This document shows positions 21,693 through 48,095 of a DNA stretch of 64,000 nucleotides, piece after piece. The translations under genes and the position numbers were made by a program. Numbering within the stretch: position 1 is the stretch's first letter; the number at the start of each line of letters is the position of its first letter. Under the pieces are notes generated by a model, which saw only the letters and a list, made by a program, of their open reading frames with translations, had not been told where the DNA came from and did not search any database. The stretch spans positions 62,001-126,000 of the forward strand of contig NZ_MWQH01000004.1 of the NCBI RefSeq assembly GCF_002210295.1, in the 5' to 3' direction. Source of the DNA: Fibrobacter sp. UWB5. Lineage in GTDB: Bacteria > Fibrobacterota > Fibrobacteria > Fibrobacterales > Fibrobacteraceae.

Positions 21693-21772
21693 CATAGCCT
21701 CCAACAACGTTTATCCCAAACGCTACAAGTCAATAATAATTTTTTATGCAATAAAAAAGTAAGAACGAGTGC

Positions 21773-21836: not shown

Positions 21837-24800
21837 CTATTTCACAAGCACCTTGCCCGAGAGCTGTTGGCTGCCGACCTTGATTCTCACAAAGTACACG
21901 CCAGACTTCGGAGCATTCAGGCTAAACTGGTTCGTACCGGCGGTCGCCTTGAACTGGCCCGCAGCCACCTTCTTGCCATCGATTCCGACCACAGCGTAGC
22001 TTGCGCGTGCCCCGGCCAAAGCTTCGGGAGCCGTAAAGCCAAGCTGCAGCGTGCCACCCGCAAGGGTCGAGCCAAAGCCGCTGATCTTGGAAGATGCCAC
22101 CACCGCATTGCTTGCAGCCACGCGGACTTCGACCTGCTTGGCGGACTTGGCGAGCGCCACATTCAGGGCCTTTTCGCTCGTAACTTCCGTCGTCACGCCA
22201 TCTGCGGTCACAAACAGCTTGAGTCCCTGGCTGTTCAATTCCTTGACGCCTTCGAACTTGAGCTTGCCATCGCGGGCAGAGTTTGCGCTCACGTCCAGAA
22301 TCCAGCTGTATTCGCTTGCGACAGCCTTGATGCTCTTGGCAAGCTTGGCACCCTTTTCGCTATTGCGGATTGCAAGCGACACGCGGTTACCCATGCCTGC
22401 AGGCGGTTCATCGAGCGATTCTTCGGCGCCGGCACCAATCACGTTCCAGGAATCCTGCTTACCGTAATCGTCGGCCAAAGAAACCGTCAAGCTCCAGGCG
22501 CCCTTGATACCAGCGGCATCCTTATGCATCGCTTTCTTCGTTTCGACATCGGAGGGCACCGCGCTAAGCTTGAATTCCGGAGCGGCAGGCATGCGCCAGG
22601 TGGTAGACTTGGTCACCTTCGCCCACACGGCTTCGTACGGGCCGACCACCTGAGGATTCGGGTCGTAACCGCCCTTCGTGGGGTCCCAGCGCCAGAAGGT
22701 CACCTTGGCACCGTTATCGGAAGAACCCTTCGTGAGGTTCACATTCCAGCCGTACGGGTTAGCCACCAGGTTCCAACCGCTGTACAGGCTATCGAGTTCC
22801 CACACGATTTCAGAATCCTTGGAGCCGGTAGATTCGCGGATCACCAACGGATTGCCAACGGTCGTACCGTACCAGAAGCCGCGAGTGGCATCGGTATTTT
22901 CGCCGTTAAAGGCGCGGTACTGCCAGTAATCGCCCACCGGGTTCCTTTCGTCCCACCAGTAGAACGAGGCGTCGTCGGCATTTACCTTCTTCTTGTCGAA
23001 GGCGGACAGCGAAACCATCTGCCAGCTACCCGGAGCAGCCGTAATCTGAGAGGCGACTTCAAAACGTCCGCTATATTCGGCCTGTCTTACCTTGTCACCC
23101 ACCGTCAAGGTCACTTTGAACTTGCCAATCGGAGCAGGGGTCATTTCCCATTCACCGCCACCAACAACAGAGTTCGGAATATCCGTCTCCAGAATGACGC
23201 CGTTCTCACCCGTCACCACGATGTGGGCGACCGCAGTTTCATCGACGTTTTCGGTACCGAAGGTCAAGAGGATTGCATTGCCGGACTGTTCAATCGTCGG
23301 CTTCACAATCTTGATTTCGCCCGTATAGCTAGAGCTAGAGACCACCGGAGTGCTGCTGGAAACTTCGACAGAGCTAGACGATTCAGGCACAACAGAGCTC
23401 GAAGATTCTTCGACGCTGCTGGAGCTTTCGGGCACGCTCGAGCTAGACACTTCGACAGAACTCGAGGATTCCGGCTCGCTGCTGGAACTTTCGACAACCG
23501 AGCTCGAAGATTCTTGAATCTTTTCGTAGGTCGCCATCACATCCAGATTCTTGACAATCTTGTCGAACTTGCGGTCCCAACCGGTAAAGGTATAGCCTTC
23601 GCGCGTCGGTTCTGCAGGCGCCACGGCCGCAGCGCCGTATTCCACCATCTGAACGTCACCAATCTGGGATTCATCGTAATCCAAGAAGGTTACCATGTAC
23701 TGCACCTTGATCGAATCGTAAACAGCCTTGTAGACGGCATCGCCCTTGACTCTGGTCACTTCAGGATCCCAGCCCACAAAGGTGTATACGTATTCAGCCG
23801 TAGCTGCGCGCGGTTTTTCCGGAATCGGAGACAACACAACCGCACCGTATTCAATGGAATCGCTTGCAACGAGCCCACCATCGAAATCCTTAAACACAAT
23901 CCAGTACTTTTTCGGTTTGTACTCCGCCTTGATATTCAAGTTGTCCTTGACCTGCGTGTAAGACAAGTCACTCCAGCGAGCAAACTCATAGCCTTCGCGG
24001 GCCGGAGCCGTCGGAGCTTGAGCCGATTCCATATACTTCACACTCTGATCTTTACCAATCTGCGAACCGTCATAGCTAAAGAACTTGACCGTGTACACGT
24101 TAACGTCATACTGAGCTTCTACAGTCAGGTCACCCTGAATATTATGGAAATCCCTATCCCATTCGCCATTAAAGGTATGACCCTCGACCGGGTGATCTAG
24201 CACATCTTCTAAGGTCGGTTCGGGGGAATCTTCGCCAGCCTTCACCTGATATTGCTTAATAATATCCTGCTTATTCTTAGTCACAAAAGTGACCATGTAA
24301 TAAACGGTTTCCGATTCAGGCTTAACGGGGTCATACAGGTCCTTAACCGCAAAGATCGGGAGGTCGCTGTTGCTGCCCTTCAAATAGCTCCACGCATAAT
24401 CCGCTTCTTTGCTATAGGCGCTGTTCAAGAACCCAGCAAATTGGGAATTCTTTACAGACTTCTTCGTTCCGTTATGGTCGCCCGAAAGAGCATCCGTTTC
24501 TCCATTGCGGACCACATAGTGAATGTCGGCATCTGTAGCCCAATCCGTTGTTCCGGAATAACCCAGCTGGCCAAACGGAACCATAATGTTGGTATTGTCA
24601 ATTTCGTCGTAATGGTACACCGACTTTACGCTGTAACCCTTGCTCGCCACCATCTTACCGAACAGGTAGCCCACCTTCTTTTGGTAGTCCGTATCGGCAT
24701 CGCTATGGGTTGCGGTCACCGAGATTTCGCCAATACTAAAGGCATTGCGCAATTCCACTTCGACTTCGTTTGCGTTGGCGGCGCCCACAAGGCCACCGAC

Positions 24801-26780
24801 CAAGAGCGCATTGCCGGAATGCTTGCCGCCCACCGTAATTTCGCCCGAAACGCCGACCCTGTTCATGAGGGTGATTTCGTTACAGACGCCGCACAAGCCG
24901 CCCACGTTGGTTTCTTGCCTGTTCGTGGTAGTGACTGCAGCACCTTCTTTCGCCTTGTAAGAAATCAGGTTTTCGTTGCGGGCAATCACGTTCTCGAACT
25001 TCACCGTCTTGCCGCCTTCGACCTTGGTAAAGCCGCCAAGAATGCCACCCACGAACACATTGTTCAAACTGTCTTCAACCACAATGGATCCATCGTAATA
25101 CACGCTAGAAATTGTCGCGGGCTTATCGGCAACAGCGACACTTGCAAAGCCGATTACGCCTCCCACGAACACGCTGTCACGAGCCGGGGCACCATTATCT
25201 TCTTTTTCACCATCCACAGCTGTTTTGACCTTCGAGGTAATCTTGACAGAAGACGTATCGTTCACAATGCCCATGTCCTTTGCCTGGGCCAAGCAAGCGG
25301 ACCCCACGATACCGCCCAAGTAGGCGTCACTATGCAAACCGTCAACCGCAGCTGCCGAAGCCGAAAGCGAAATGGAGCCTTCGGTTCTGGAATTCTTGAC
25401 GCTCAAGAAGTCGGTATCCGCAGTGCTTCCGCTCGTGCAAGAGGCGCCATAACCGACAATGCCGCCGGCAAAGTACTGGTACTTGCCCGCCACCTGCAAT
25501 ACATCGGTCAAGTCAATGTCGGCGTAGCCATCCACAACCTGGAAAGACGTGTTCGTTTCTGTAGAATCAAAGCCCACAAGGCCGCCCACCGCGATTACAT
25601 CAGTAGAAGAAGCATCGTAGATTTTACCGCTAAACTTGCTATTACTGAGAACGAATTTTCCGGTATTGGCGCTTGCACCGAACGCGTTCGACTTGAACAC
25701 CGTCACTACGCCGAAAATGCCACCCATAGACGAGCCGCCCGAAATGCGGGACGGCAACACTTCGCTTTGCGCGCCGACCGTTTTAACGACCTGCAAGTTT
25801 TCATTGGTATTGCCAATCGTCTTGACAAAGCCCGCAATACCGCCCAAAGCGGACTTGTGGCCAACAGCCTCGTCGCGAACGTCAACCCAAATAGAATCGT
25901 TTATAAAAGTATTGTCGCCTTCGCTCGTGTCGCGAACGACAAAACCAACCAAACCGCCCAAGAATGCGTTATAACCAGTCTCACGCTTTAATTCGGCAGA
26001 ACCGGCATAGCCTTCGGTAATGGCGACCGTATTAGAGACAGCAACGCCATCGCCTACGACATTCGAAAGAGTCGAATTGCGGACATAACCCGCAAGGCCA
26101 CCTGCAACGGGCCCTTGGATTACGGCATTCGTAATACCGATGCTGTCGATCAGCGAATAGGTCACCACGCCCGCGATGGCACCCACAGGGTGGTAAGCAT
26201 CACCCTTGGTGCTTTCGCCACTGACAATAATGCGTACGCCATCGAACTTGATGTTTTTGACAGTCGAGCGGTTAACGATTTTGAACAAGCCCACAGGTTC
26301 TTTCGCATCGGATGCTACATAGCAAAGATTTTTAATGTACTTGCCATTTCCGTTTAACATGGTGCTGTCAATAGCCGGGAACGGCACATGGTTTACGTCA
26401 CACTTGCCCTCTTCAGTCGTGGCGGAATATTCACCCAAGTCGATATTGGTAGCGAGTTCAAGGGTCACGCCTTTGTACGTAACCGACTTGATCCAGTTTG
26501 TTTCAAGCATTTTGGCTAGGTTTTCGGGAGTAGCGGTAACACTGGCTACACAGCCATTGGTGGGAGTCCCCCACATACCCATGCCAGGCATCGCTACAGG
26601 CTTACAATCTTTGGCTTCTTGGCTAAGCACCAATATGGTGGTAGCATTCATGCCGTAACCATTAACCTGCGATTTCAGGTTAAAATAAGAGGTTGCCGCC
26701 ACTTCGTCACCGGGTGCAGCAAAACCCATGCCGGTCCACGCCAGCATGGCAAACAAAAACAAACCGATTTTTGCTTTCAT
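21837..26780 (-). CDS. giant secreted protein with GLUG-like repeats, InlB-type B repeats and Ser-rich linker
   Basis: 1647 aa. Signal peptide MKAKIGLFLFAMLAWTGMGF ending near AAPGD. Residues about 180-700 carry a dozen GG-x-x-G motifs (GGLAGYVRN, GGLVGFVVR, GGIAGFVKT, GGIVGYGAS, GGVIGFASV and others), the pattern of GLUG or beta-helix surface repeats. Four InlB/Flg_new-type B repeats follow (about residues 830-1090), each with VxFxxxD and REGYxFxxW-like cores. Then comes a linker of SSSS blocks and a C-terminal module shared with the gene at 15618: WQMVSLSAFD, GWNLVANPYGWN, DEPPAGMGN, LKFEGVKELN, ending GVYFVRIKVG with KVLVK. Predicted cell-surface adhesin. Separated from its paralogue by a strong terminator, so each is its own unit. 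Confidence 0.85.
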   Translation of the reverse strand: MKAKIGLFLFAMLAWTGMGFAAPGDEVAATSYFNLKSQVNGYGMNATTILVLSQEAKDCKPVAMPGMGMWGTPTNGCVASVTATPENLAKMLETNWIKSVTYKGVTLELATNIDLGEYSATTEEGKCDVNHVPFPAIDSTMLNGNGKYIKNLCYVASDAKEPVGLFKIVNRSTVKNIKFDGVRIIVSGESTKGDAYHPVGAIAGVVTYSLIDSIGITNAVIQGPVAGGLAGYVRNSTLSNVVGDGVAVSNTVAITEGYAGSAELKRETGYNAFLGGLVGFVVRDTSEGDNTFINDSIWVDVRDEAVGHKSALGGIAGFVKTIGNTNENLQVVKTVGAQSEVLPSRISGGSSMGGIFGVVTVFKSNAFGASANTGKFVLSNSKFSGKIYDASSTDVIAVGGLVGFDSTETNTSFQVVDGYADIDLTDVLQVAGKYQYFAGGIVGYGASCTSGSTADTDFLSVKNSRTEGSISLSASAAAVDGLHSDAYLGGIVGSACLAQAKDMGIVNDTSSVKITSKVKTAVDGEKEDNGAPARDSVFVGGVIGFASVAVADKPATISSVYYDGSIVVEDSLNNVFVGGILGGFTKVEGGKTVKFENVIARNENLISYKAKEGAAVTTTNRQETNVGGLCGVCNEITLMNRVGVSGEITVGGKHSGNALLVGGLVGAANANEVEVELRNAFSIGEISVTATHSDADTDYQKKVGYLFGKMVASKGYSVKSVYHYDEIDNTNIMVPFGQLGYSGTTDWATDADIHYVVRNGETDALSGDHNGTKKSVKNSQFAGFLNSAYSKEADYAWSYLKGSNSDLPIFAVKDLYDPVKPESETVYYMVTFVTKNKQDIIKQYQVKAGEDSPEPTLEDVLDHPVEGHTFNGEWDRDFHNIQGDLTVEAQYDVNVYTVKFFSYDGSQIGKDQSVKYMESAQAPTAPAREGYEFARWSDLSYTQVKDNLNIKAEYKPKKYWIVFKDFDGGLVASDSIEYGAVVLSPIPEKPRAATAEYVYTFVGWDPEVTRVKGDAVYKAVYDSIKVQYMVTFLDYDESQIGDVQMVEYGAAAVAPAEPTREGYTFTGWDRKFDKIVKNLDVMATYEKIQESSSSVVESSSSEPESSSSVEVSSSSVPESSSSVEESSSSVVPESSSSVEVSSSTPVVSSSSYTGEIKIVKPTIEQSGNAILLTFGTENVDETAVAHIVVTGENGVILETDIPNSVVGGGEWEMTPAPIGKFKVTLTVGDKVRQAEYSGRFEVASQITAAPGSWQMVSLSAFDKKKVNADDASFYWWDERNPVGDYWQYRAFNGENTDATRGFWYGTTVGNPLVIRESTGSKDSEIVWELDSLYSGWNLVANPYGWNVNLTKGSSDNGAKVTFWRWDPTKGGYDPNPQVVGPYEAVWAKVTKSTTWRMPAAPEFKLSAVPSDVETKKAMHKDAAGIKGAWSLTVSLADDYGKQDSWNVIGAGAEESLDEPPAGMGNRVSLAIRNSEKGAKLAKSIKAVASEYSWILDVSANSARDGKLKFEGVKELNSQGLKLFVTADGVTTEVTSEKALNVALAKSAKQVEVRVAASNAVVASSKISGFGSTLAGGTLQLGFTAPEALAGARASYAVVGIDGKKVAAGQFKATAGTNQFSLNAPKSGVYFVRIKVGSQQLSGKVLVK
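23325..23513 (-). repeat. SSSS-block linker repeat
   Basis: Eight or nine units of SSSS joined by VPE, VE, EPE or VV, between the B repeats and the C-terminal module of the 1647-aa protein. More acidic than the linker of the metalloprotease. Confidence 0.85.
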
Positions 26781-34235: not shown

Positions 34236-34892
34236 ATGACTAAAGAACAATACGCAGAAATGCTCAAAGACATCAGCGAAACTCACAAGCAAGGAGGGAA
34301 TATTTCAGCCTGCATCGAAAGCATCTCATTCGTAAATCCTGCCATCGTCGCCCCGTTCAGCAAGAACATCACGTCGGACATTGTAGCGGAAGACCAGCAC
34401 CTGGATCGCATCGTACTTGAAGTACAACATGTCTGCGGCGATTCGTATCGCGACCGTCTCGTTCTTTACACGGCAAAACACACCGTTGCAAGCCGCGTTA
34501 AAGGCGAAGATTACAAGCTCAGAAATTTGAACCTCATCAGCCTCCAGATGTTCAACGGATTCCCGGAGTCTTCGAACTACAGGCACACCATTCGGCTCAA
34601 GAACCAGGACAACGAAGTTTATTTTGACAAGCAGACCATCACCTTAGTCGAAATCCCTAAATTGTGTATCTTTACAGAAGAATTTCTTGTAAGTGAGGCG
34701 ATGAAAATGAGCGACCACAACTACGAACTCTACGTCGAAAAAAAACAGGCCCGCGAAGAAGGCCTCGCGGAAGGTCGCGCAGAAGGACGCGCAGAAGAAC
34801 GTGCCGACAACCTTGCCGTATTGCAAGACATGAACCTGTCGCCCGAACAAATTGCCGAATTCAAGGCCAGACTCGAAGCACGCGGGAAATAG
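34236..34892 (+). CDS. PD-(D/E)XK nuclease family (Rpn/transposase-like) protein, N-terminally short
   Basis: 218 aa. The core SDIVAEDQHLDRIVLEVQH followed by YRDRLVLYTAKH matches the D ... ExQ ... R-x-x-Y pattern of PF12784-type PD-(D/E)XK proteins, which are often annotated as transposases or recombination-promoting nucleases. The C-terminus has the usual Glu/Arg/Ala-rich stretch (EEGLAEGRAEGRAEERA) and a final helix. The usual N-terminal FK-x-LFG segment is missing, so it is about 60-80 residues shorter than most members; whether active is unclear. AAAGGA precedes the ATG. Upstream DNA shows no inverted ends of an insertion sequence. Confidence 0.7.
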   Translation: MTKEQYAEMLKDISETHKQGGNISACIESISFVNPAIVAPFSKNITSDIVAEDQHLDRIVLEVQHVCGDSYRDRLVLYTAKHTVASRVKGEDYKLRNLNLISLQMFNGFPESSNYRHTIRLKNQDNEVYFDKQTITLVEIPKLCIFTEEFLVSEAMKMSDHNYELYVEKKQAREEGLAEGRAEGRAEERADNLAVLQDMNLSPEQIAEFKARLEARGK

Positions 34893-35065: not shown

Positions 35066-38000
35066 CTACTGCCAACAATTATCACTTTGGCCATTTTGAT
35101 CCATTTTAAAATAGGCTGTACAATTGCCAAGGTCAAATGATGGCCACCATTGCCAATCACTGACAAACGTATGACTTTGCACATTTCCGGAACAATCCTT
35201 ATAAAGCATTTTCGCCCCAATAGGACCGGTCAGATGCCAATTAGCACTATTCGAACAAGTTCTTTTGTAGCATTGTCCCGCAGTCATCACAAAATTGCTT
35301 CCAGTCATATTTGTTGAATTATCATCATCACAGTCAAATGAAATTGTCTGCGCAGGAAGTTTGCAGTTAAACCATTCCAATTGTGCACTTTCATTATTTC
35401 CTGCCGATACGCAAAGAGTTACATAACCATCATCACCTGCGGAATATTCCTTTTGCAACAAGTTTGTTTCAGCATCATTCAATTCAGCTTCCTCACCATT
35501 TACACAGAACGACCTGCCTTCAGCGTTGCTCGATTGAACAGTGACTTTAGAAGCAAGGATTTTCACACACTTTGCATTTTTCCCAAAGCCATTCACACTT
35601 CCAAATCCATTATTTGTTTCGCATTCCCATGTAGTCGGATTTGCATCTGTAGGACAAGTAAACGGCTCTTCCGCATCAGCGACAGTTATCGTCTTAGAAC
35701 AAGTACCGCTGAAATTATTGTCACAAGCACAAGCAATGGACAACGTTTTTTCACCACTAGCCATGGCCTTTCCTATAACCTGTAGTTCATTCTCGTTTTC
35801 AGGGAAATATACAGAACTTATTGAATTAGACGCGTCGGTAAATGAGCAATTCGAGCAATTTATATTTTTTGTTGCCGTGAATGTATAAGAAGCCTTTTTA
35901 TTCAATTCTGTCGGAGTTACACTACACGTAAGAGCAGACCCGATATTCAAGGTTCCACTACAAATTGAGAAGCCCTGATACACGACAGAATATGCGTAGC
36001 TACCGGCCACCGCAGGAGCCGTCATAGTATTATTCCAGCATCCACCAGAATTACAATCTATCGTTTTAGAAGTTTCTCCAATTGTCCACGTAAGTTTATC
36101 AGATCCATCAATATTCAAATTCGGAACATTTACAGACAATTGTTGCCCCTGATACAAATCACCCGTTATAGAGCAACTCACAGCTTCCGGTTCAGCAACA
36201 GTTAATGTGGCTTCGCACGAAACTCCACCATTGACAATCAACTTATACGTCATTTCCCCGGCCTTTGTCGGTTTCACCCAAACGTCATAATTGCCACCGG
36301 TCCAGAAGGTTCCGTTAGAAGACACCTCATTTCCATCACCATCAACAAGCTTTATAGATGCGTTTTGATGTGTTCCCGTAAACTGAGACGATCTGAACGT
36401 AGTACTTTGACCAAAACCAAGAGATGTATTGTCAAAAGAGCACGTCGCTTGAATTTCAGATTGTTGCTGATTTTCATCTACCACAGTAAACGAGCCAGGA
36501 TTACATTCCACCTCGGCGAATGGTCTAGAAGCATTTTTCTGTCGCATTTTCACTGTATAAGTTCCCTTCGGGAGAGGCGATGTAGAAGAATTCAATGCAA
36601 ATGGAGAAGAATTCAACCCGGTAAAGTCACCCGTAGCATCGTCCTGAGCGATAACAACACCGGTTTCTTCCACATAAACTTCATAGCCACACCTGTTATC
36701 CGGACATCCACCAAGAGTATATTCAACAACAGGAATTCCTCGGCCCACAACAGCAGAATTCTTCAACAGCCTACATGTAGCACTAATAGACGATATTGGA
36801 TACGGATCCGTAATACAAGTTGACGTTGCAGAGCCATTTTCCATCAAAGAAACCGTGAACACATAATTCTTTCCAGTATTTTTAACATATGGATTATCCT
36901 TCCAATCAAACAAAACGGTCTTCGCCTTTCCCGAAGCATCGCCCCAGCTACAGCTTTCTCCGCCGCTAGCACCACATGAAAGCGAGGACGGATTCATATT
37001 GTCCGTATATACTTCATTAGAATTGACGGACACCTGAATTTCTCCGGCTCGATCCGCATTATTTACAACAGCTTGTATTTTCCACTCATTAGTAGCCATA
37101 TTGTAACTTGCATAACACCTTCCAACACTTAACACATTGGGGCAAGACGTCATAACGCTGGAAACCATTGTTGCTCGGGCTCCACTTGTCAAGTTATGAA
37201 TGTATACACCCATTACTTTTTCAGGATTAAAGCCTTCCGCATCAGATAACGAACTTACATCTATCGAAATATCTCCCGTGGCGTTTGTTCTGAACGTCTG
37301 GCTGTATTTCGCATCTGAACCATATGAATAAGCATCATTTTCATACTGGCTAAACATGGATATTTCCACTGTATCTAGCGAGGGATTATTCAAATTAATT
37401 TTGAGCGTTGCATCACGCAAATTAGCCAAATCAGCACCATCGACATTCCAATATTCTCCGCTACTGGAACCATCAACATACTTGAATTCATATGTTCTTG
37501 TACAAGGAGTAAAGTCTCCCACCCAGAACGGCCCACATTCAGCATTCACACTTGCCCAGGGTTTATCGTCATATGTCAAACCACAATCAGACACCCCAGC
37601 TTTTGCGATTCTTCTATCAGATCCATGGGAACCTTCCATTCCAAAAGTATACCGTTCACCACAATCAAAGAAAGTTCCATCATCAGCGAGCGCCGAACCG
37701 GTACAAACAAGATCTTCATTATTGTTTCCATTATAATAATAATGTTGTTCACATTGTCCATACCCTTGATCAAACCAAGCAGACAATCCAACCCACGGAT
37801 ACACGGCGGTTCCTTTGGGCACAATCCCCCCTGCATAATTCGCCTTAAACGAGCATTTGATTGTAGGATAAGTGTCCCAACACTCTGCATTATTATCTTC
37901 ACTATACCAGCCAATACCATATAATTCAAAATTCGGATCCCCTAAACGGAAACCAACCGTTTCATTCGTTCCATAGACCTTCAAATTTTCCACTCCAGGC

Positions 38001-41000
38001 ATCTTGGTATTATTTAGCGCAAATGAAGTGGAATACGTTGTAGTGCTAAAGGTACTCGGAATTGCCGACACAACCAAAGTATCGCCATTTCCATCAATAC
38101 CTTTAATAGTAGCCGAAGCTAGAACAACAGCCCCATCATTGGCATAAGCGGTTGCAAAACCGTTATACAAAGCCGATTCCATACACACATCGCTACCATT
38201 CAAGCAAAGTCGGGCCGTAATACTGTTGTTGTCATCCAAATAAAGGTTTAACATCAAGTAGCTCGAGGTATCCGCAGCGCTTCGTAAAATAAAGCCAGTA
38301 TTTTTTATAGCAGCCTTAGCTATATTCTTATTGGAGGAGGACATTTTAGATATTTTAAACTGAGCCTTCAATGTTCCATAAAGACCAGCTTCAACACTAC
38401 TAAGAATAGTAACCTTCGGCATTTGAGATTCTTTTTTATGCCGCGTAACAGATTCTTTTAATTTGATTTTTTTATCATAAGTATCCAATTGCAAATCGTC
38501 TAAAGAGCCCTCAACCAAAAGCCACTTTGCATTATTTTTGCAAACATGATTTGTTGAGGTGCAAGGCGTAATACAATATTCACTTGTTACTTTTTCATCA
38601 GTACTTGTTGAATTTTGTGAGGTACAAGAAAGACCCTGTTGTCTAAATTCATCAAAGAAACAGTGTTTGTCTTTCTCATTAAAATGCGCATAAACTACAT
38701 CATCTTCGCTTACATAGAACGAAACTATCCGCTGATTCAAATTCGACAAGCCCTCGCAATCAGAGCCAGATTCACACTTCCAGCGATTAAAATCACTAGG
38801 ACTACCCGGCAAAGAAAGGGTCACCTTTGAACCTCTATACACATCAATTGCGCAATTATCATGATTAGCACTAAAACTTGCATAAGAACAATCCATTTCT
38901 CGGGTATTGCCGTTATTATCAACAACATCAACATGTACCGTCTGCTGAGATCCAACAGCATCTCCCCCAAAACCAGTTTTAAACGTCAAAGTTGACGCTT
39001 TCAACCCTGCATACATATAATACAGCCCATTCGGCGTCAACTGAGCAGAATAAGAATTATATTCAGAAGGAATTACAACTTGGCAACCACTCGGCACAGT
39101 TCCTTGAGTCAAACTAATATTTGACGCAATATCACAGACCCAATCATGATTAGCAGTCAACGTCCTACATCCGTCGCCACCATTAGCAGACACATTCACC
39201 CATGTGCCAATTTCCGGACAATCAGGCCATTCCGCAGTATTTGCCTGCCGTTTCAAAACACTGCCTTCTGGGCATTCATCTGGATAGGTCGCGCAATAAT
39301 CATGCAAACTTTTTAATTCAACATTCGCCGACGCTGCGACATATATTGATTCCAATCTTTTTAAACCTGGGCGACAGCCTTCACAATCAACAATAGTAAG
39401 ATTTATTCCTCCTGAGGAAGCATTTTTGTTCTTCACATTAAGAATTTCTTTTGACGTCGTTCCACTCGGAATAGTTACAGTACAGAAGCCATTACTGCAC
39501 GTCGTACTAGCATCGTACTCAGTAATTTCCCATGCATTTTCATCATAATTTGTCGGTATTGAAACCTTAACCACATATTGCTCGGAAGACTGTCCATCTA
39601 GCACAATTGTAGGTGTTGTTGTCGCATTCTTCGCCAATTCAACCGAGGTTAACTCAAAATTCGCCTCTGGCGTTCCGCTCAAAGTGCCCTTAACAACAAC
39701 ATAGAACGGTACCTGACTTTCAACATCATCGACTTTCGCCTTCACCGTACATGTAAAATAACCTTCCGAAAGATATCCCGTCTCAGTAGTATACAATTTT
39801 CCCGTTGTCGGAATACCTCCAGTACAAGTAACAGTTTTATTCGTCACCGGAGATTTACTATTGAGCGGAACAGCTCCATAATAGTCATCTAAAGAACCCT
39901 TAGGATCTTTGGATATATACACAACTCTTGGGAGAACAATAAAGGAGCCTCCCAAATTTTGAGCATTAGCCAAAGCAGATTCAGACTCAGCATTCTTATA
40001 TTGCGACTCCACCGAGATTCTCAGCTGCGGGGCACTAGCAATGTAATAAGCGTCAGAACCTCCAAACACCTCCGTAGAAACCGACGTTTCAGAAGTTGCA
40101 GAGCTAGAAGAGCCTAGGGTTGTCAGCTTTTCGCCACAATCTGTATTTTCATACGGGCACAACACTCCATTCATTACCAAGTCATTTATCAAATCCTGGT
40201 TCATTTCCATTTTATTGATGGTCATATCCTTTACGCGAGCACAATTTTCCGCTTTGGCATAGATGGAACCACTCAAAACAGCATCATTGTTAAACAGGAA
40301 ATTAGCCACATCTTTATCGGTAAAGATGAAGTAATTATACGTCCCCGGATCTTTCGGTTGCAAAGATGACGAGGCTCCTTGACGCAAATACAAGAAGACA
40401 TACGCATCCTTTGCTGTCGGAGGGAACGCATTTTGCCCAGGGTCGTTTTCAAAGACAATAATATACTTGTGAGTAAGCGTTCCTGAAGGATTTTTCATTC
40501 CCGTACTACGAATACTAACAACAAGATATCCATTGAAAAGATTGTCCGTTGATTGTTGTGCATAGCAATTATTCAATTTGTCAACAATATCATCCGTCCA
40601 CTCTTTAATATTTGCGGCACATCCCTTAGTTGCGTATTCCTTAAATACATCATAGGAATTCTTTAGCATGTCATCCACTTTATAGTCTGCGCCAAAACAA
40701 CCGCCACCTTTATGCCAAATAGAATCGCAAGTAGTTTTAATAGATTCGCCACAGTCTAAATCAGTCGGATCCGTCGCACTGAAAGATCCCTTTACGCTAA
40801 ACCAAGACGGAACGGAGCAGAAAGGTCTGAATCCTTCTGTAGAAATCTTCTTGCAATAAGGCGAGCCAACAATGGAGCCATCTTCGCAACTATTATTTTT
40901 ATCATTATGCAAACAATCAAAATGATACCCTCTATAATGCGGAGTCAATGAATAGCTAATCGGCGCCATCCAGCCACCACCTGTGGTAACCAAATCCTGA

Positions 41001-42529
41001 TAGTAGAAATATTCCCCACCTACATAATAAGCTCCCATTTCGGAATCTTTAAATGGCTGCATACCCATGGGACCTGGACCTGCAGCATGTCCGGTACGTA
41101 CCTGGCGCAAATCTTTACGATTGTATTTCTTAAATTCCACATCTTTTTTGCCCGGCCCAGGTTCAGTATAATAGATGTAATACTTATCCGTAGCCGCAGT
41201 GCGCTCCCACGCATAAGGATGATAAGTATTGTCATCTTCCCAATAGCTCCACTGATCGGCCCATGTAAATCCAAAACCTTCCAATTGAGCACAAACAGCT
41301 TGATAATAATTGGCTGTCACTTTATCACAAGTTTTCGCATTTTTTTTGTCTTCTTTAAATGATTTATTGTGCAAAGCACTATAATGTTCCGACTCCTTAC
41401 CATATTTAATATACGCCGTTCCAGAACTTTCAGCAAAAACAATGCGTCCATAACGCGAGTCAATTCCAGAATTGTCATTCACAACATATTGACCATCGGA
41501 AACTTCACCGAAAGCGACATTAAAGGGGCCCGGCATCCATACACTTTGCTTAACAACAAAGTCATGATTATTTCCGGACGACAACAGAAGAGCATTCTCG
41601 TCTAGGCAAAAATTTCCATGAATAACGGGAGAAAGAGCCCCCTGATTCGTCACCATCGTTCCTTTCAAATAGACATTACTGTCTACATTGAATCCAGGAT
41701 CAGCCTGTGAACCCATTTCAACGGAACCATTGAAATACACATTTCCTTGAAGTCTCGCCGTAAAGCTTTTTGCATCCTTTTCCACATACAAATCGCGGCC
41801 AGTGAAGCCATTGTTTGCGCTCAAATTTCCACCAATACACGCCGTCTCACCAATATGCAAATTATTACCCGTAAGTTCAGCGTTTCCTGTCACAACAAAC
41901 ACCGTTGAAACTGTATTCGGGTTTCCATACCAATCTCCATTCACAAGAATCGAGGTTGAATTCATGTTACCATGGTTTTCCATGGATCCACCAAAATAAT
42001 TGTAATTAAAGAAAAAGTTCGAAGTCGTTTTCTTAGCAGGAATAGTAACCCTATATAAGCCATCCACTTTTAAAATGGCCGCCTCGGTATACGATGCCAC
42101 GCCATTACGAGATTTTCCTTTAGATAAAATTTTCAATTTATATGGTGATGATTCTGTATTGACACCGGTAAGCCAAACATCGTAACTTTGTCCACCCCTC
42201 TTAAATTCAGCCATTTGTCCATCAATTTTTATAGGATGATTTCCTCCATCTATATATTTCTTGATGAGAGCACCAACATCATTTCCATGATGAGTCATCC
42301 ACGCACGAGTCGCCTCAATACCCGCTTCTGCAGACTGGAAAGCTTCACGCTGAATCATTCTTGCTCCCGACGACCTTGATTCAGAGGTAATCCATTTATA
42401 TGTTGCCGTTGCAGCAATGGTTGCAATCAACATAAAGAGAAGAACAACTATTAGAGAAACACCCGATTTTAAGCACATCGAGCGTTCAAACATAAATTTC
42501 TTTTTGTTCATTCCGATTCCACTTGACAT
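35066..42529 (-). CDS. giant PilX-like minor pilin / adhesin (2487 aa)
   Basis: Last gene of a minor pilin operon. The N-terminus is that of PilX: a short leader ending KSG, then VSLIVVLLFMLIATIAATAT (about residues 24-43), then the PilX_N signature REAFQSAEAGIEATRAWM (61-78). Glu5 of classical pilins is absent, as in PilX and GspK. Typical PilX is under 250 residues; this one continues for some 2400. Residues about 170-330 form bactofilin-like beta-helix repeats (GNVYFNGSVEMGS, NVYLKGTMVTN). Later parts are Cys-rich Ig-like repeats starting with a cysteine (TCSFDNTSLGFG, SCSITGDLYQG, TCSVTPTELNK), and a final Cys-rich domain. Start chosen because AGGAGG sits five bases upstream and overlaps the PilW stop. 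Predicted role: tip adhesin or display platform. Confidence 0.85.
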   Translation of the reverse strand: MSSGIGMNKKKFMFERSMCLKSGVSLIVVLLFMLIATIAATATYKWITSESRSSGARMIQREAFQSAEAGIEATRAWMTHHGNDVGALIKKYIDGGNHPIKIDGQMAEFKRGGQSYDVWLTGVNTESSPYKLKILSKGKSRNGVASYTEAAILKVDGLYRVTIPAKKTTSNFFFNYNYFGGSMENHGNMNSTSILVNGDWYGNPNTVSTVFVVTGNAELTGNNLHIGETACIGGNLSANNGFTGRDLYVEKDAKSFTARLQGNVYFNGSVEMGSQADPGFNVDSNVYLKGTMVTNQGALSPVIHGNFCLDENALLLSSGNNHDFVVKQSVWMPGPFNVAFGEVSDGQYVVNDNSGIDSRYGRIVFAESSGTAYIKYGKESEHYSALHNKSFKEDKKNAKTCDKVTANYYQAVCAQLEGFGFTWADQWSYWEDDNTYHPYAWERTAATDKYYIYYTEPGPGKKDVEFKKYNRKDLRQVRTGHAAGPGPMGMQPFKDSEMGAYYVGGEYFYYQDLVTTGGGWMAPISYSLTPHYRGYHFDCLHNDKNNSCEDGSIVGSPYCKKISTEGFRPFCSVPSWFSVKGSFSATDPTDLDCGESIKTTCDSIWHKGGGCFGADYKVDDMLKNSYDVFKEYATKGCAANIKEWTDDIVDKLNNCYAQQSTDNLFNGYLVVSIRSTGMKNPSGTLTHKYIIVFENDPGQNAFPPTAKDAYVFLYLRQGASSSLQPKDPGTYNYFIFTDKDVANFLFNNDAVLSGSIYAKAENCARVKDMTINKMEMNQDLINDLVMNGVLCPYENTDCGEKLTTLGSSSSATSETSVSTEVFGGSDAYYIASAPQLRISVESQYKNAESESALANAQNLGGSFIVLPRVVYISKDPKGSLDDYYGAVPLNSKSPVTNKTVTCTGGIPTTGKLYTTETGYLSEGYFTCTVKAKVDDVESQVPFYVVVKGTLSGTPEANFELTSVELAKNATTTPTIVLDGQSSEQYVVKVSIPTNYDENAWEITEYDASTTCSNGFCTVTIPSGTTSKEILNVKNKNASSGGINLTIVDCEGCRPGLKRLESIYVAASANVELKSLHDYCATYPDECPEGSVLKRQANTAEWPDCPEIGTWVNVSANGGDGCRTLTANHDWVCDIASNISLTQGTVPSGCQVVIPSEYNSYSAQLTPNGLYYMYAGLKASTLTFKTGFGGDAVGSQQTVHVDVVDNNGNTREMDCSYASFSANHDNCAIDVYRGSKVTLSLPGSPSDFNRWKCESGSDCEGLSNLNQRIVSFYVSEDDVVYAHFNEKDKHCFFDEFRQQGLSCTSQNSTSTDEKVTSEYCITPCTSTNHVCKNNAKWLLVEGSLDDLQLDTYDKKIKLKESVTRHKKESQMPKVTILSSVEAGLYGTLKAQFKISKMSSSNKNIAKAAIKNTGFILRSAADTSSYLMLNLYLDDNNSITARLCLNGSDVCMESALYNGFATAYANDGAVVLASATIKGIDGNGDTLVVSAIPSTFSTTTYSTSFALNNTKMPGVENLKVYGTNETVGFRLGDPNFELYGIGWYSEDNNAECWDTYPTIKCSFKANYAGGIVPKGTAVYPWVGLSAWFDQGYGQCEQHYYYNGNNNEDLVCTGSALADDGTFFDCGERYTFGMEGSHGSDRRIAKAGVSDCGLTYDDKPWASVNAECGPFWVGDFTPCTRTYEFKYVDGSSSGEYWNVDGADLANLRDATLKINLNNPSLDTVEISMFSQYENDAYSYGSDAKYSQTFRTNATGDISIDVSSLSDAEGFNPEKVMGVYIHNLTSGARATMVSSVMTSCPNVLSVGRCYASYNMATNEWKIQAVVNNADRAGEIQVSVNSNEVYTDNMNPSSLSCGASGGESCSWGDASGKAKTVLFDWKDNPYVKNTGKNYVFTVSLMENGSATSTCITDPYPISSISATCRLLKNSAVVGRGIPVVEYTLGGCPDNRCGYEVYVEETGVVIAQDDATGDFTGLNSSPFALNSSTSPLPKGTYTVKMRQKNASRPFAEVECNPGSFTVVDENQQQSEIQATCSFDNTSLGFGQSTTFRSSQFTGTHQNASIKLVDGDGNEVSSNGTFWTGGNYDVWVKPTKAGEMTYKLIVNGGVSCEATLTVAEPEAVSCSITGDLYQGQQLSVNVPNLNIDGSDKLTWTIGETSKTIDCNSGGCWNNTMTAPAVAGSYAYSVVYQGFSICSGTLNIGSALTCSVTPTELNKKASYTFTATKNINCSNCSFTDASNSISSVYFPENENELQVIGKAMASGEKTLSIACACDNNFSGTCSKTITVADAEEPFTCPTDANPTTWECETNNGFGSVNGFGKNAKCVKILASKVTVQSSNAEGRSFCVNGEEAELNDAETNLLQKEYSAGDDGYVTLCVSAGNNESAQLEWFNCKLPAQTISFDCDDDNSTNMTGSNFVMTAGQCYKRTCSNSANWHLTGPIGAKMLYKDCSGNVQSHTFVSDWQWWPSFDLGNCTAYFKMDQNGQSDNCWQ

Positions 42530-42538
42530 AATGCCCTC

Positions 42539-43996
42539 CTAGTCTCTTGGGCCGTTACTAGGCGCAGGGACTACCAAGGTGACTTCGCCGGTTTCTCCAT
42601 TGCCACCAGCTTTGGCACCTCGCTTAATGGATAAGGTTAATTTGAATGCCTTTACATTCTGTTTGTCATTTTCTTTGATAGTAGTGACTACACTGCCAAA
42701 TTTGTCTTTACCAAAAGTATAGTTTTCCGAAGTACGTCGTTTAAGACGAAGATCTTTTATCGTCAAAGACCCCTTAGCCACTACAGGTGAGTATATGGCA
42801 AAGGTAAACATCATACACACTTTTTTTATAGAATCTGGCACCGTAAAACGCATCACACGTTCCACATTAGAGCCATCACTACTAGATGGTGGATAAAACA
42901 TAAAGTCATTTAATTTTGTCGGTTTCGTCCCATTCAAATGAACAAAGCCAACTGACATATGATCTCGACCAGGAACGAACATCTGCATATTGTCCGAAGT
43001 CCCCGACCCCGAATTCGGGTACGGAACCTTAAATGAGATTTCATATTCTTCATTTGGCGCAAATGTAAAATTATTGCCTTCTTCGTTACAAAGAGCTGCC
43101 CAAGAATCAGACTCACCCGTATTCTGAAGGACAATAACCTGATGTTTCAACTGACCATCGGTAACAGGCAGTCCTTCTGACATATTGTAATTTGTCGAAA
43201 ATCCACTCAGCGTTACAGATTGCCCTCCCTCACTTACCAAAAGAGGTTCCAAATTTGTTTCACCATACCGAGGATACAATTTAAATGCATTTCCACCTCC
43301 TGGCGGGAAAATTTGCTCTTGTCTGTAATCCAAATTGCCAACATCACTACGAATCAACGGAATACCCGGCTGGACAATAAAATCCTTAATTTCCGTAGCC
43401 ATTTCTGTTATGTATTCTTCCATTGCAGCACCATCTGTGCCTTTGGGCGCACAAGGATAATCATTAACCGAAGTACTCTTCTTATCCAAAATAACACACT
43501 GACGTTTTAAAGTCGTGGAATTATTTGCAGTCGTTAAAAACCAAGCAACCTCTTCTATAGCTTCATAATGGCCAAGGGTATCATAACGTAAACGCCTAAA
43601 AATAAGACTATCCGTATTTCCCGTCGTGGCATTGTTCACAATCCTAAATGACGAGGAATCCTTCTTAACGTCGATTGCGTTATTCGGATCCATGTATATA
43701 TCAGAAATATGAGAGACATCAAAATAATCACTAGAAGAGGCCCCTACAGATTCCAATGAGCTCTTGGCCCCCATTTGAGCCAAGTCATCCTTCAAGAGCA
43801 TTCCCACATTTTCAGCAACCTGATTCGCTTTAATCATATTATCCGTACGAATGCGGAACTTGGTAGAATTACTAAACGCTTCTCCAGCAACAACGACAAT
43901 AATGCCTACAATAGCCATGTAGACAAGCAACTCCATAAGCGTAAAGCCCTGCTTATGGATTGCCGCGCTGCGCTCGCAATGACGTTTGCAACTCAT
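42539..43996 (-). CDS. PilW-like minor pilin
   Basis: 485 aa, long for PilW. Leader ending KQG before FTLMELLVYMAIVGIIVVVA, with Glu5 conserved, so it should be cut by the prepilin peptidase. After the helix come KANQVAENVGMLLKDDLAQMG and RRLRYDTLGHYEAIEEVAWF, a PilW-type region; an extra beta-rich insert (about residues 270-420) resembles a carbohydrate-binding jelly roll. The start ATG overlaps the PilV stop (ATGA). Ten leader residues (RHCERSAAIH) are encoded by a palindromic repeat at 43956-43984. No alternative start lies between the repeat and the cleavage site. Confidence 0.85.
   Translation of the reverse strand: MSCKRHCERSAAIHKQGFTLMELLVYMAIVGIIVVVAGEAFSNSTKFRIRTDNMIKANQVAENVGMLLKDDLAQMGAKSSLESVGASSSDYFDVSHISDIYMDPNNAIDVKKDSSSFRIVNNATTGNTDSLIFRRLRYDTLGHYEAIEEVAWFLTTANNSTTLKRQCVILDKKSTSVNDYPCAPKGTDGAAMEEYITEMATEIKDFIVQPGIPLIRSDVGNLDYRQEQIFPPGGGNAFKLYPRYGETNLEPLLVSEGGQSVTLSGFSTNYNMSEGLPVTDGQLKHQVIVLQNTGESDSWAALCNEEGNNFTFAPNEEYEISFKVPYPNSGSGTSDNMQMFVPGRDHMSVGFVHLNGTKPTKLNDFMFYPPSSSDGSNVERVMRFTVPDSIKKVCMMFTFAIYSPVVAKGSLTIKDLRLKRRTSENYTFGKDKFGSVVTTIKENDKQNVKAFKLTLSIKRGAKAGGNGETGEVTLVVPAPSNGPRD
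43956..43984. repeat. palindromic dispersed-type repeat within the PilW leader
   Basis: 29-bp element with core ATTGC-C-GCGC-T-GCGC-TC-GCAAT: outer arms ATTGC/GCAAT and inner GCGC/GCGC. It looks like the interspersed repeats of many bacteria that read as HCERSAAI when translated. Here it lies in frame inside a gene. Confidence 0.75.
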
Positions 43997-44523
43997 CGAA
44001 TTACCCCTGAAACCGTAATAGACTGAACCGAATTTTTAAAATGCCAACTCACTTTAACATCTAGCCTTTTGGCATACACATGAGAATAACTGCTAGAACT
44101 CATAGCAGACAAAAGCAATGACCCCGTATTAGCAGTATATTCCGCGTCCGGCGACACAGTAACTTCAGCCCTATAATCAACAGTCATTTTATGGCTCAAC
44201 ACACCGGGTTGTCCTTCCCAGGTACGTTTAATAGGATCAATAATAATGGGTTGAATCACACCTGCGCCATTCTTCAACTTTTCATCGGTAAGGTTTGCAA
44301 TTCCTAAAGCACCAAGCGAATCTATAATATTTTGAGCAACTTCAGTAGCCCCATCACGGCCACGAATACGCAGCAACGCTTCACGATTGCCGCCCTGTAA
44401 ATTGAGCAAAGCTACGTATAAAAAACCGAGCACAGCAGCTGCTATTAGCACTTCGACAATGCCGAAGCCTTGCTTGCTGCACGGGCATTTTTTACCCTGC
44501 AAATGTCCACTCACCTTCACCAT
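43993..44523 (-). CDS. PilV-like minor pilin
   Basis: 176 aa. Leader with several cysteines and lysines ends KQG, followed by FGIVEVLIAAAVLGFLYVAL with Glu5. The next segment LQGGNREALLRIRGRDGATEVAQNIIDSLGALG is typical of PilV, where AAR/AQN-like residues precede a short beta domain. GGTGG lies four bases before the ATG, just after the FimT stop. Overlaps PilW by four bases. Assembles into the pilus priming complex by analogy. Confidence 0.85.
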   Translation of the reverse strand: MVKVSGHLQGKKCPCSKQGFGIVEVLIAAAVLGFLYVALLNLQGGNREALLRIRGRDGATEVAQNIIDSLGALGIANLTDEKLKNGAGVIQPIIIDPIKRTWEGQPGVLSHKMTVDYRAEVTVSPDAEYTANTGSLLLSAMSSSSYSHVYAKRLDVKVSWHFKNSVQSITVSGVIR

Positions 44524-44531
44524 AACACCAC

Positions 44532-45113
44532 CTACAGTTCAACCCAGTTGCTCCAATCACTGTCTTTAGTGCCGTCGTGGTTCACCTTCCACATCGGAAT
44601 CACCCAATTTTTTTTCTTATCCTTACGAACAGCGCCATAGACATCCTTATCACCATACTGTACGCAAGCCCCACCTTCAGGAGGAGTGGCAGCAATACCT
44701 AAGCGAGGTTTAAAAACGCCATATGCAGTAAACCAATCCTGGGTAACCGGGCCACATTTAGCCATGCCCACGAACTGACTTGGTGGATCTAGAACTAAAG
44801 AGTCTATTATTCCGTCACTCGGAGTGGTACAATCCTTTTTTTGGTCATCACGCACCACATAAATCTTTTGATGGTTTCCGGAGGGAACCTTCATACACAA
44901 CACAGCCGAAAGTTTATTGGACTCATTCGCCACCCTTTCGACAAAGGCTGCGGTATTAATGGCAGCATCCTTAATGCGGGCATTTGCAACAGCACCTTGC
45001 AGCCCCGCTACTCCCATAGCCGAGAGAATGCCCATAATGGATACAACCACAAGGACTTCGACTAGGGTGTAACCCGCCTTAGTACAACAAGCTGTTCGCT
45101 TTGCAAACACCAT
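44532..45113 (-). CDS. FimT/GspH-like minor pilin
   Basis: 193 aa, first gene of the operon. Leader MVFAKRTACCTKAG, then YTLVEVLVVVSIMGILSAMG with Glu5. The mature part has GLQGAVANARIKDAAINTAAFV, like FimT, and a C-terminal beta domain with cysteines (CTTPSDG, KCGPVTQ, GGACVQYGDKD). AGGTAGGT precedes the ATG. The operon order FimT, PilV, PilW, PilX matches minor pilin clusters of other bacteria, but no PilY1 or PilE gene follows. Confidence 0.85.
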   Translation of the reverse strand: MVFAKRTACCTKAGYTLVEVLVVVSIMGILSAMGVAGLQGAVANARIKDAAINTAAFVERVANESNKLSAVLCMKVPSGNHQKIYVVRDDQKKDCTTPSDGIIDSLVLDPPSQFVGMAKCGPVTQDWFTAYGVFKPRLGIAATPPEGGACVQYGDKDVYGAVRKDKKKNWVIPMWKVNHDGTKDSDWSNWVEL

Positions 45114-45340: not shown

Positions 45341-46210
45341 TTATTTGGTATAGTAGCTAAAGCCGCCCGTTGCGCCCCAATGCCAGCCAGGGAGCTCGCC
45401 AACGATATTGGAGGCGCCCAAACGGACTTCCCAATTCTCATTGATGCGGTAGCCGGCAGTAAGGTATCCTGTCACGACGAGCGGGAAGTCAAATTCAGAT
45501 ATAGTGCCACTCGATCTGGAAACATTGTCGTCATCGTCTCCAGGATACGAGGGGTCAGGCCGATAAATGTTTACCGAGAAATTCAGCGAGTAAGGGCCAT
45601 AATAGGTGCTGGCGTACCCGCCATAGGTAATGACCGTTCCCATGCCATTGGACGACTCAAACGGATATTTGTCTAAACGATCCGAGCTTAGGAAGGTGTC
45701 GCAATCGTATGTTGTTCCCGAATAATTGAATTTGCGGAAATACATCCACATACCTAGCGAGCCACCCACTTCGAAATACTTGGTGTTTATACCTAAAATA
45801 AGACTGCTGTACAGCCCTTTATCGAGAGCAAAAGTAAAGCCCCAAAGGAAGAGATCTTTTTTGCTGATGTAATCTAAAGAGGCCTCTACATACGGGTACA
45901 TTATTTTGTAGGTGCCGTCTACTTTTTCTTTAACTTCTTCGGGTTTATAGCCCCTGCACCTGGTAAGATCGCCACAGCCGTCCATGGAGTTTCTGAGGCC
46001 GTGAAGCTGTTCTTTATCTTGTGGACCCGCGTGTACGTTTGCAGACAAGCGAACGTTAGCGGTATTGGGTTCTTTATAATTACCCGCACCGCGGATTTCG
46101 GGAGCAGCAGGAGTTTCCATTTCAAATTTTTCTACGTGGGCGTAATGGCTCGTATAGCCGCAGCCAACGAGAAGGATAGAACCTAACAGAAGGGCGCATA
46201 AATGTTTCAT
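45341..46210 (-). CDS. lipoprotein with outer-membrane barrel-like C-terminal part
   Basis: 289 aa; lipobox LLVGC near residue 17. Residues about 45-100 form a soluble segment (ANVHAGPQDKEQLHGLRNSM), and from about residue 105 there are alternating strands (YPYVEASLDYISKKDLFLWG, EVGGSLGMWMYF, GYRINENWEVRLGASNIVG) ending GGFSYYTK. This pattern fits Fibrobacter surface lipoproteins of unknown function. TATATT ends nine bases before the ATG and no ribosome binding site is visible. Divergent from the GH44 gene. Confidence 0.75.
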   Translation of the reverse strand: MKHLCALLLGSILLVGCGYTSHYAHVEKFEMETPAAPEIRGAGNYKEPNTANVRLSANVHAGPQDKEQLHGLRNSMDGCGDLTRCRGYKPEEVKEKVDGTYKIMYPYVEASLDYISKKDLFLWGFTFALDKGLYSSLILGINTKYFEVGGSLGMWMYFRKFNYSGTTYDCDTFLSSDRLDKYPFESSNGMGTVITYGGYASTYYGPYSLNFSVNIYRPDPSYPGDDDDNVSRSSGTISEFDFPLVVTGYLTAGYRINENWEVRLGASNIVGELPGWHWGATGGFSYYTK

Positions 46211-46304: not shown

Positions 46305-48095
46305 ATGAAACGTATTCTAGCCGCAATCATCGCAAGTGCTGCAACATTGTCCACCGCCGCCATCGACATTTCCGTCGACGCACAAAAGGGCATCAAGAAA
46401 ATTTCGCCGTACCTTTACGGGCGAAACATCGACAAGGTGAGTGACACCAAGGTTGAAAGCGACGCAGACGAAGAGGCTTTTATCGCCCAAATGCTCGATG
46501 CGGGCATTCACTTTTTACGCGCGAACAACGGCAACAACGCCACGCGCTACAACTGGCGCCACAAAATGACGGTTCACCCGGACTGGTTCAACAACGTCTA
46601 CTCGCACGATTGGGCGATTACCGCGCAAAAGGTTCTCGACAACATGCCGGGGGTCGACGCGATGTACGCCTTCCAGCTCACGGGCTATGCAGCCAGCAGC
46701 ACCGAATACAATTTCCCCGACTGGAACTGGAAACAGGAGCACGGCTCTTATCCGTCGCAGACATTCGACCTCGCGGGCGGCGGCGAAGTTTCCGACGATG
46801 GCGAAACACTCATCAAGGCAGGCGATGCCTCGCTCTACAACATGGAATGGCCCGCCGACTCGACCGTCGCGATTATTCCGCACTGGAAAGACGAACTCCA
46901 GTATGACATGAGCCGTTTTAAATACTGGAGCATGGACAACGAGATAGAAATCTGGCGCGGCACGCATTCCGACCTGGATTTGCCTGTCACGGGAGACTTT
47001 CTCGTTGAACGCTACATCGATGTCGCCAAGAAGGCCCGCGCCGCCTGGGGCGACATCAAGCTCACCGGCCCGGTGGTCGCAAACGAATGGTTCTGGTGCT
47101 CCGTGTCCTCGTACAACAAACAGGATAGACCCAAAGGCCCCGATCGCGATTACTGCTGGCTAGAATACTTTATCATGAAAATCGCCGAAGAGCAGAAAAA
47201 ATCCGGCGTTCGCCTGCTCGATGTTTTCGACATTCACTGGTACCCGAGCGAAAAAGATTACGAATCGCGCGTGAACTGGCATCGAGTTCTATTCGACACC
47301 ACCTATAACTATCCCGGAGCAAACGGGATCAAGATGGTGAACGGCGGCTGGGACAACGACAACCAAAAGGAATACATCTTCAAGCGTATCAACGACTGGC
47401 TCGAAAAATATTTCGGCAAGGATCACGGCATTACGCTCGGCATTACCGAAACCGACCTGAACGATTCTGATCCTATGGTGACAGCGCTCATCTATGCGTC
47501 TTTCCTCGGAACCATGCAGGACAACGGTGTCGAGATTTTCACCCCGTGGACATGGGGCGACGGCATGTACGAAACGGTGCACCTGTTCAGCCGCTACGGC
47601 CACCCGAACCGCGTGCAGTCCACCTCCAGCAACGACTCGCTAGTGTCTGCCTACAGTTCCATCAGCAACAAGGGCGACTCGCTCACAGTCATCTTCGTGA
47701 ACCGCGCCGAAAAGGACGCACAAGAAATCAACCTCGATCTTGCGAACTTCGCCTCCGACGGAAAGGTCAAAACGCTCACCTTGCAAAATCTCCAAGGCGA
47801 AACATTCGTTTCGCACACAAGCAATGCCTTGAAAGAAAACGCAGTTGAGGCAAATGCGCAGGGCGGAACGACCACTGCGACAAGCTACAGCATTAACAGT
47901 TTCAGGATGACGCTCCCCGCCAAATCGATTACCGCAGTGCTACTCACTTCTAACAGCCCGACCGTCGTTGACGCCATCAGGCCAAAAGCCACGATTCGTC
48001 CCGCGCCCCAATACGGAAACACGAGCCGCTTCGACACCAAGGGCCGAAATGTCACGCACACCCGCACAAGCCCCGGGTTCTACATTCTGCGATAA
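46305..48095 (+). CDS. glycoside hydrolase family 44 (endoglucanase/xyloglucanase-like)
   Basis: 596 aa secreted enzyme. Signal peptide ends near STAAID. GH44 features: ISPYLYGRNIDKVSD, then FLRANNGNNATRYNWRHK, AYAFQLTGYAA-like barrel strand, YWSMDNEIEIWRGTH (predicted acid/base Glu213) and GITETDLND (predicted nucleophile Glu382), followed by a beta-sandwich half. GH44 enzymes cut beta-1,4-glucans and xyloglucan by a retaining mechanism. The C-terminus, RFDTKGRNVTHTRTSPGFYILR in part, resembles the sorting-like domain of the other secreted proteins here but stops right after FYILR, lacking the final K-V-x-V-K strand. Ends at a bidirectional terminator shared with ileS. Confidence 0.85.
   Translation: MKRILAAIIASAATLSTAAIDISVDAQKGIKKISPYLYGRNIDKVSDTKVESDADEEAFIAQMLDAGIHFLRANNGNNATRYNWRHKMTVHPDWFNNVYSHDWAITAQKVLDNMPGVDAMYAFQLTGYAASSTEYNFPDWNWKQEHGSYPSQTFDLAGGGEVSDDGETLIKAGDASLYNMEWPADSTVAIIPHWKDELQYDMSRFKYWSMDNEIEIWRGTHSDLDLPVTGDFLVERYIDVAKKARAAWGDIKLTGPVVANEWFWCSVSSYNKQDRPKGPDRDYCWLEYFIMKIAEEQKKSGVRLLDVFDIHWYPSEKDYESRVNWHRVLFDTTYNYPGANGIKMVNGGWDNDNQKEYIFKRINDWLEKYFGKDHGITLGITETDLNDSDPMVTALIYASFLGTMQDNGVEIFTPWTWGDGMYETVHLFSRYGHPNRVQSTSSNDSLVSAYSSISNKGDSLTVIFVNRAEKDAQEINLDLANFASDGKVKTLTLQNLQGETFVSHTSNALKENAVEANAQGGTTTATSYSINSFRMTLPAKSITAVLLTSNSPTVVDAIRPKATIRPAPQYGNTSRFDTKGRNVTHTRTSPGFYILR

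Follow-up and report, generated by a model that had tools for sequence, protein, structure and literature searches.

The window, that is, the whole stretch of 64,000 nucleotides analysed here (Fibrobacter sp. UWB5, contig NZ_MWQH01000004.1, positions 62,001 to 126,000), carries an operon of minor pilins made of four minus-strand genes, in the order FimT-PilV-PilW-PilX-like and spaced by 8, -4 and 9 bases in the list of its open reading frames (Table 1). A preliminary description, made from the letters alone, had recognized this arrangement, and it stands. Prepilin N-terminal motifs are present in the FimT-, PilV- and PilW-like proteins, and all three keep Glu5. In HMM searches the FimT-like protein gives partial GspH/PRK10506-like matches, and the PilV-like protein weak matches to N_methyl, GspI and PilV, all of them below cut-off. 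The fourth gene, coding for the giant PilX, is an uninterrupted frame that starts at ATG 42529, preceded by AGGAGGG, which is a good ribosome-binding site; the 2487 residues read at the outset contain no frameshift or split. The operon had also been perceived as AT-rich, and indeed its GC content is 0.40-0.44 as compared with about 0.52 in its surroundings. This bias lies mainly at third codon positions, with a GC3 of 0.35-0.45 (0.35 for the giant) against mostly 0.58-0.77 in neighbouring genes, among which the epimerase, glycoside hydrolase family 44 (GH44) and IleRS genes are at 0.71-0.77. Promoter and terminator scans remained near shuffle level.

Table 1. Genes of the minor pilin operon and regions of the giant PilX (window coordinates; a slash marks the cleavage site in a motif; domain boundaries within the giant are approximate).
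Feature	Residues	Window coordinates	Strand	Details and basis
FimT/GspH-like minor pilin		44532..45113	-	193 aa, G/YTLVE motif; N_methyl E 1.5e-6
PilV/GspI-like minor pilin		43993..44523	-	176 aa, G/FGIVE motif; operon position conserved
PilW/GspJ-like minor pilin		42539..43996	-	485 aa, G/FTLME motif; N_methyl E 1.2e-6
Giant PilX-like modular pilin		35066..42529	-	2487 aa, 270 kDa, 81 Cys; single ORF
Signal cleavage site (class III), alpha-1 helix, first pilin-fold strands	22-165	42035..42466	-	PilX_N, model, conserved alignment
Beta-solenoid (about 166-470) and further body	166-825	40055..42034	-	Model pLDDT 84; ComZ 6qvi match; homologous to small PilX
Last pilin-fold strand APQLRISVESQY, putative ancestral C-terminus	826-846	39992..40054	-	Aligned strand is the terminus of small PilX in other families
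C-terminal extension, apparently Fibrobacteraceae-specific	847-2487	35069..39991	-	Profile search outside the family; giants within the family
Predicted Calx-beta/cohesin-like beta-sandwich	952-1067	39329..39676	-	VIA Z 12.4, 105 aligned, rmsd 2.5 to NCX1 CBD1
Predicted ConA-like lectin fold	1290-1583	37781..38662	-	VIA
Best-conserved part of extension, invariant Cys and Trp	1541-1690	37460..37909	-	
Predicted Ig/FN3-like beta-sandwich chain, length varies among homologs	1800-2288	35666..37132	-	Foldseek, VIA
Cys-rich domain at the distal C-terminus, with the greatest divergence between relatives	2291-2487	35069..35659	-	Low-confidence model part

The neighbourhood deserves a comment of its own. 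Just upstream of the pilin operon lies the GH44 gene (46305-48095, plus strand, E 3.5e-24), with a putative lipoprotein gene (45341-46210) in between. Two more giant surface-type proteins are encoded on the minus strand, at 15618-21707 (2029 aa) and 21837-26780 (1647 aa), with weak matches to Por secretion tails; the former gene sits in an AT-richer stretch, and the product of the latter displays Listeria-Bacteroides repeats.

The class of the giant protein is set by its N-terminus. PilX_N matches residues 22-72 over the full model (E 2.5e-8, 34.2 bits for a Pfam cut-off of 25.5), which bears out the PilX-type signature noticed from the letters; it is the only Pfam match of the protein above cut-off, and the giant is the sole PilX_N protein found in the genome. 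A class III signal with glycine at position -1, G/VSLIV, places valine at position +5 of the mature protein, hence no Glu5, and the gene comes last in a set of H-I-J-K minor pilins that is found in the same order in other families. Complexes of minor pilins at the tip of filaments are capped by a subunit devoid of Glu5 (PMC10191384), so that the missing Glu5 would put the giant PilX at the outer end of the filament. Taken together with the K position and with a likeness to ComZ, discussed below, this leads us to infer that it is most likely a K-position (PilX/GspK/ComZ-type) minor pilin located at the tip.

Two AlphaFold2 models, built from 48-row alignments, cover residues 22-1210 (pLDDT 84) and 1290-2487 (pLDDT 78). 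The first one matches ComZ of Thermus thermophilus (PDB 6qvi) with a VIA Z of 10.7 and 326 residues aligned over positions 32-825, but the superposition is valid domain by domain and not as a rigid whole, because its rmsd is 16.1 Å. ComZ is the sole pilin among the matches listed for the model, from which nothing follows about other pilins. It is a K-type pilin whose sheet accommodates a beta-solenoid ahead of the last strand, its gene adjoins those of other minor pilins, it binds DNA, and it has been argued on structural grounds to be a tip pilin (PMC6561018). We read the predicted solenoid and body of the giant as a similar insertion before the last pilin strand. The two part ways at about residue 846, where the alignment with ComZ stops; nothing comparable to the C-terminal extension of the giant is present in ComZ. 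Within that extension, residues 1290-1583 are predicted to resemble the lectin region of Vibrio cholerae sialidase (VIA Z 11.8, 173 aligned, rmsd 3.6) and the ligand-binding region of SraP (VIA Z 11.2, 182 aligned, rmsd 3.7). Despite this ConA-like fold of the model, the giant gives no Pfam lectin match, and folds of this type are sometimes purely structural. Both the ComZ and the lectin matches surfaced in a second look with VIA and not in the top rows of Foldseek, which alone returned generic Ig and cadherin matches there; PDB sequence searches with profiles of the giant found no meaningful relative. The extension is acidic (regional pI 4.2-6.2). In the alignment of giants a single conserved chain runs to about residue 2010, followed by repeats in variable number (occupancy 0.37-0.69 at residues 2041-2200), then by the Cys-rich end. 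The repeats initially described as Cys-rich and Ig-like thus find their counterpart in the 81 cysteines and the Ig/FN3-like beta-sandwich chain of the model. Of the bactofilin-like beta-helix repeats, the helix survives as a beta-solenoid and the bactofilin does not: a search for PF04519 in the window protein came up empty at E<=1, and one relative reaches E 0.081.

Giant PilX proteins are a family trait. Searches with an alignment query, which was required for detection (a single-sequence scan of genome contigs gave no match), found them in 95 of 111 Fibrobacteraceae genomes, in 53 of the 56 that are of good quality, and in 10 of 11 genera, so that the fused gene does occur elsewhere, the check that the preliminary description had called for. 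The frames are mostly of 2,000-3,200 aa with internal stops nearly absent. Nearly all PilX_N matches of the family lie inside giant frames, the exceptions being two short frames at contig ends (a 189-aa frame with PilX_N occurs in one genome of another family). This, together with the family-wide presence, excludes an artefact of sequencing or assembly. There is one copy in the genome of the window and there are two or three in others, where pairs of PilW and giant PilX genes are often duplicated, side by side or diverging. PilW is indeed the constant partner, upstream of the giant in other genomes and in the duplicated pairs as well. Its co-phylogeny with PilX is significant (Spearman 0.43), but no better than that of FimT with PilX (0.44), which is no evidence of a special bond between the two.

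Outside the family, a profile of residues 22-1210 retrieved relatives in other families of Fibrobacterota, with frames mostly of 520-800 aa; where the context was read, several of these loci keep the FimT-PilV-PilW-PilX order. One of them (L180:3444-8535) has three tandem modular PilX genes (536-573 aa) after FimT-PilV-PilW. These small PilX proteins (510-770 aa for the ordinary modular form) align with the pilin part, solenoid and body of the giant, and their C-terminal strand (for example KIRPELLSIYY) aligns with its residues 836-846 or thereabouts. To end on a strand is what the topology of ComZ predicts, since its solenoid is inserted before the last one (PMC6561018). By contrast, a profile of residues 848-1690 gave only two marginal sub-domain matches in 50 genomes outside Fibrobacteraceae. 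Because the small proteins end at the aligned strand and the extension is confined to the family, residues 1-846 appear to be ancestral and the remainder an addition of Fibrobacteraceae: on these comparisons, the former is the ordinary modular ComZ-type PilX of the phylum, and the C-terminal extension of about 1,640 residues is specific to the family. In Fibrobacter the subunit would have gone from about 520-770 to about 2,000-3,200 amino acids. The initial view of some 2400 extra residues following a pilin helix has to be amended in this sense: residues from about 847 to 2487 were added, but the first 846 or so are not foreign, as they form the modular PilX found phylum-wide.

Variation along the giant is uneven. 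Across close pairs of genomes, conservation is higher in the pilin, lectin and core regions and lowest at the distal end. In one pair (L091/L125) the flanks are mostly 85-99% identical and the body 92-100%, as against only 59-91% for residues from about 1100 to 2170; other close pairs show a narrower dip, to 63-68%, near residues 1950-2100. In another (L047/L048) identity reaches 99.2% over an 8.3-kb PilW-PilX cassette and 84-89% in its flanks, a probable case of recent horizontal exchange. The genomes compared are mostly MAGs, so that single pairs have to be taken with care. Hypervariability and cassette exchange are as expected for an exposed binding part; phage or immune pressure may also be a source of the former. 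The extension might even be mainly a surface-variable decoy, evading or shaped by phages that target pili or by host immunity, adhesion being secondary. Distal segments falling to 59-82% DNA identity in close pairs with flanks mostly at 95-99%, and the duplication of cassettes, would agree with this, but conservation is relatively good in the lectin and core regions, as if a binding or structural role were retained, and the giant is kept in nearly all high-quality genomes of the family, which makes a decoy an unlikely main function.

A gene of the PD-(D/E)XK nuclease family transposase type (PF12784, E 1.7e-11; 34236-34892, plus strand) converges on the 3' end of the giant gene. Relatives of it are also located downstream of PilX at loci such as L071, L074, L076, L086, L087, L116, L118 and L120, and they are enriched near giants, with 13 within 3 kb (6.1 per 100 kb) versus 2 farther away (0.7 per 100 kb). 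This gene may be linked to the exchange of the variable end. One could then imagine, tentatively and with more doubt than conviction, that PilW and the giant PilX can be swapped together as a tip cassette: docking on the pilus would be left to the conserved ComZ-type body, Fibrobacter species would diversify the extension and exchange it among themselves, possibly with the help of the recombination-type nuclease gene placed head-on at the 3' end, and different cassettes would confer different substrate specificity.

What filament would carry such a subunit? To judge from its gene content, the genome is equipped for a type IVa pilus: it encodes two PilT-family ATPases above cut-off and a PilA-like pilin, while its PilB, PilM-like and PilQ-like proteins are the best matches in the genome, all below NCBIfam cut-offs. 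PilB (G000:C3:141510-142652; L147:5641-7680) has an MshE-type c-di-GMP-binding domain (121.8 bits for a cut-off of 38), which suggests that pilus extension is under c-di-GMP control in this Fibrobacter. H-I-J-K minor pilins are common to type IVa pili and type II secretion systems (PMC10191384), and the partial GspH and GspI matches might hint that the four genes prime the pseudopilus of the latter, with the giant helping in the secretion of cellulases. We deem this very improbable: a second secretin is encoded in a separate cluster, along with pilin-like genes and a K-like protein of 299 aa proper to that cluster, the giant of the operon matches PilX_N, and 270 kDa with such an extension is a poor fit for the tip of a periplasmic pseudopilus.

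A third role would be that of a DNA receptor, the giant serving natural transformation at the tip in the way of Thermus ComZ, with the extension helping to capture DNA. Residues 53-846 resemble this DNA-binding protein, the genome encodes a ComEC competence domain, and cassettes were probably exchanged horizontally between species. Yet ComEC discriminates nothing, because it was found throughout the 13 genomes searched as well as in 10 of the 14 controls, neither the acidity nor the lectin-like fold of the extension is suggestive of DNA binding, and the small PilX of relatives would be enough for the task of ComZ. We find such a receptor improbable.

The preliminary description had stated that PilY1 is missing and proposed that the giant takes over its part as tip adhesin, perhaps for fibre binding. 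HMM searches detected PilY1 (PF05567) neither in this genome nor in any of the 168 genomes of the phylum, those of small-PilX lineages included, and control genomes gave no match either; the giant itself has no PF05567 match. PilY1 is likely absent from the phylum, as far as this profile can tell. The tip-adhesin role is retained as the best-supported reading, but not the takeover: since small-PilX lineages are also without detectable PilY1, the extension is not simply its replacement. In Pseudomonas and Myxococcus, PilX/GspK likewise closes a set of the FimT/PilV/PilW/PilX type, has PilX_N and no Glu5, and is proposed to belong to a pilus-priming tip complex, but it is normally small and PilY1 is a separate adhesin (PMC7541494, PMC10191384), whereas the giant carries the presumed binding domains itself. 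Closer in design are PilB and PilC of Streptococcus sanguinis, where a module (a ConA-like lectin in PilC) is grafted on a minor pilin and displayed by the filament (PMC8179133, PMC9934059). PilB, however, is a 50-kDa protein with its module after a small pilin, as opposed to many modules on a PilX/ComZ body. Giant bacterial adhesins, such as SiiE, fragments of which came up as Foldseek matches, share the long chain of Ig-like domains, but they are not pilins and are exported otherwise, while the anchor of the giant PilX would be a pilus subunit. Lectin or vWA modules on pilins are known (PMC8179133), as is the pilin-plus-solenoid design of ComZ; what is new is the size, the placement on a capping subunit of the ComZ type, conservation across the whole family and hypervariability. 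The giant gene is not named in the literature searched, where the S85 pilin genes Fisuc_0251-0253 do appear, in a single paper.

From the computed gene structure, family, conservation, pilus machine genes, evolutionary origin and hypervariability, we consider that the giant PilX is probably a retractable tip adhesin of the type IVa pilus. Its surface-type domains, lectin fold, family-wide retention and hypervariability argue for adhesion, in agreement with earlier work linking pilins of F. succinogenes to cellulose adhesion (PMC3079729, PMC4668043, PMC6851124). The prepilin peptidase would cut the protein after Gly22 or Gly23 (the glycine of KSG/VSLIV), and, with FimT, PilV and PilW, it would prime the filament and sit at its outer end. 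Residues 847-2487 would form a Cys-rich string of beta-domains reaching out from the tip, with a lectin-like module, an Ig-type stalk and a variable Cys-rich end. Once PilB has extended the pilus, the exposed domains would take hold of glycans of the plant cell wall, carbohydrate being the presumed ligand, or of some other surface, and retraction by the PilT ATPases would draw the cell and the substrate together.

Fibrobacter species are plant-fibre degraders of herbivore guts, and how they attach themselves to plant fibre and crystalline cellulose has been a question for many years. To our knowledge, pilins and fibro-slime proteins have been implicated in this adhesion without a defined pilus receptor. 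Of the pilus parts, the giant PilX is the best candidate for gripping the target, and its presence across the family offers to this question one concrete gene with separable domains. It also stretches the concept of modular pilins, with about 2,000-3,200 residues on a capping subunit when the most extreme multi-domain case named in the published survey has 860 (PMC8179133). Finally, a ComZ-type body found phylum-wide, with the extension in one family, illustrates a possible route from tip subunit to adhesin in which PilY1 plays no part.
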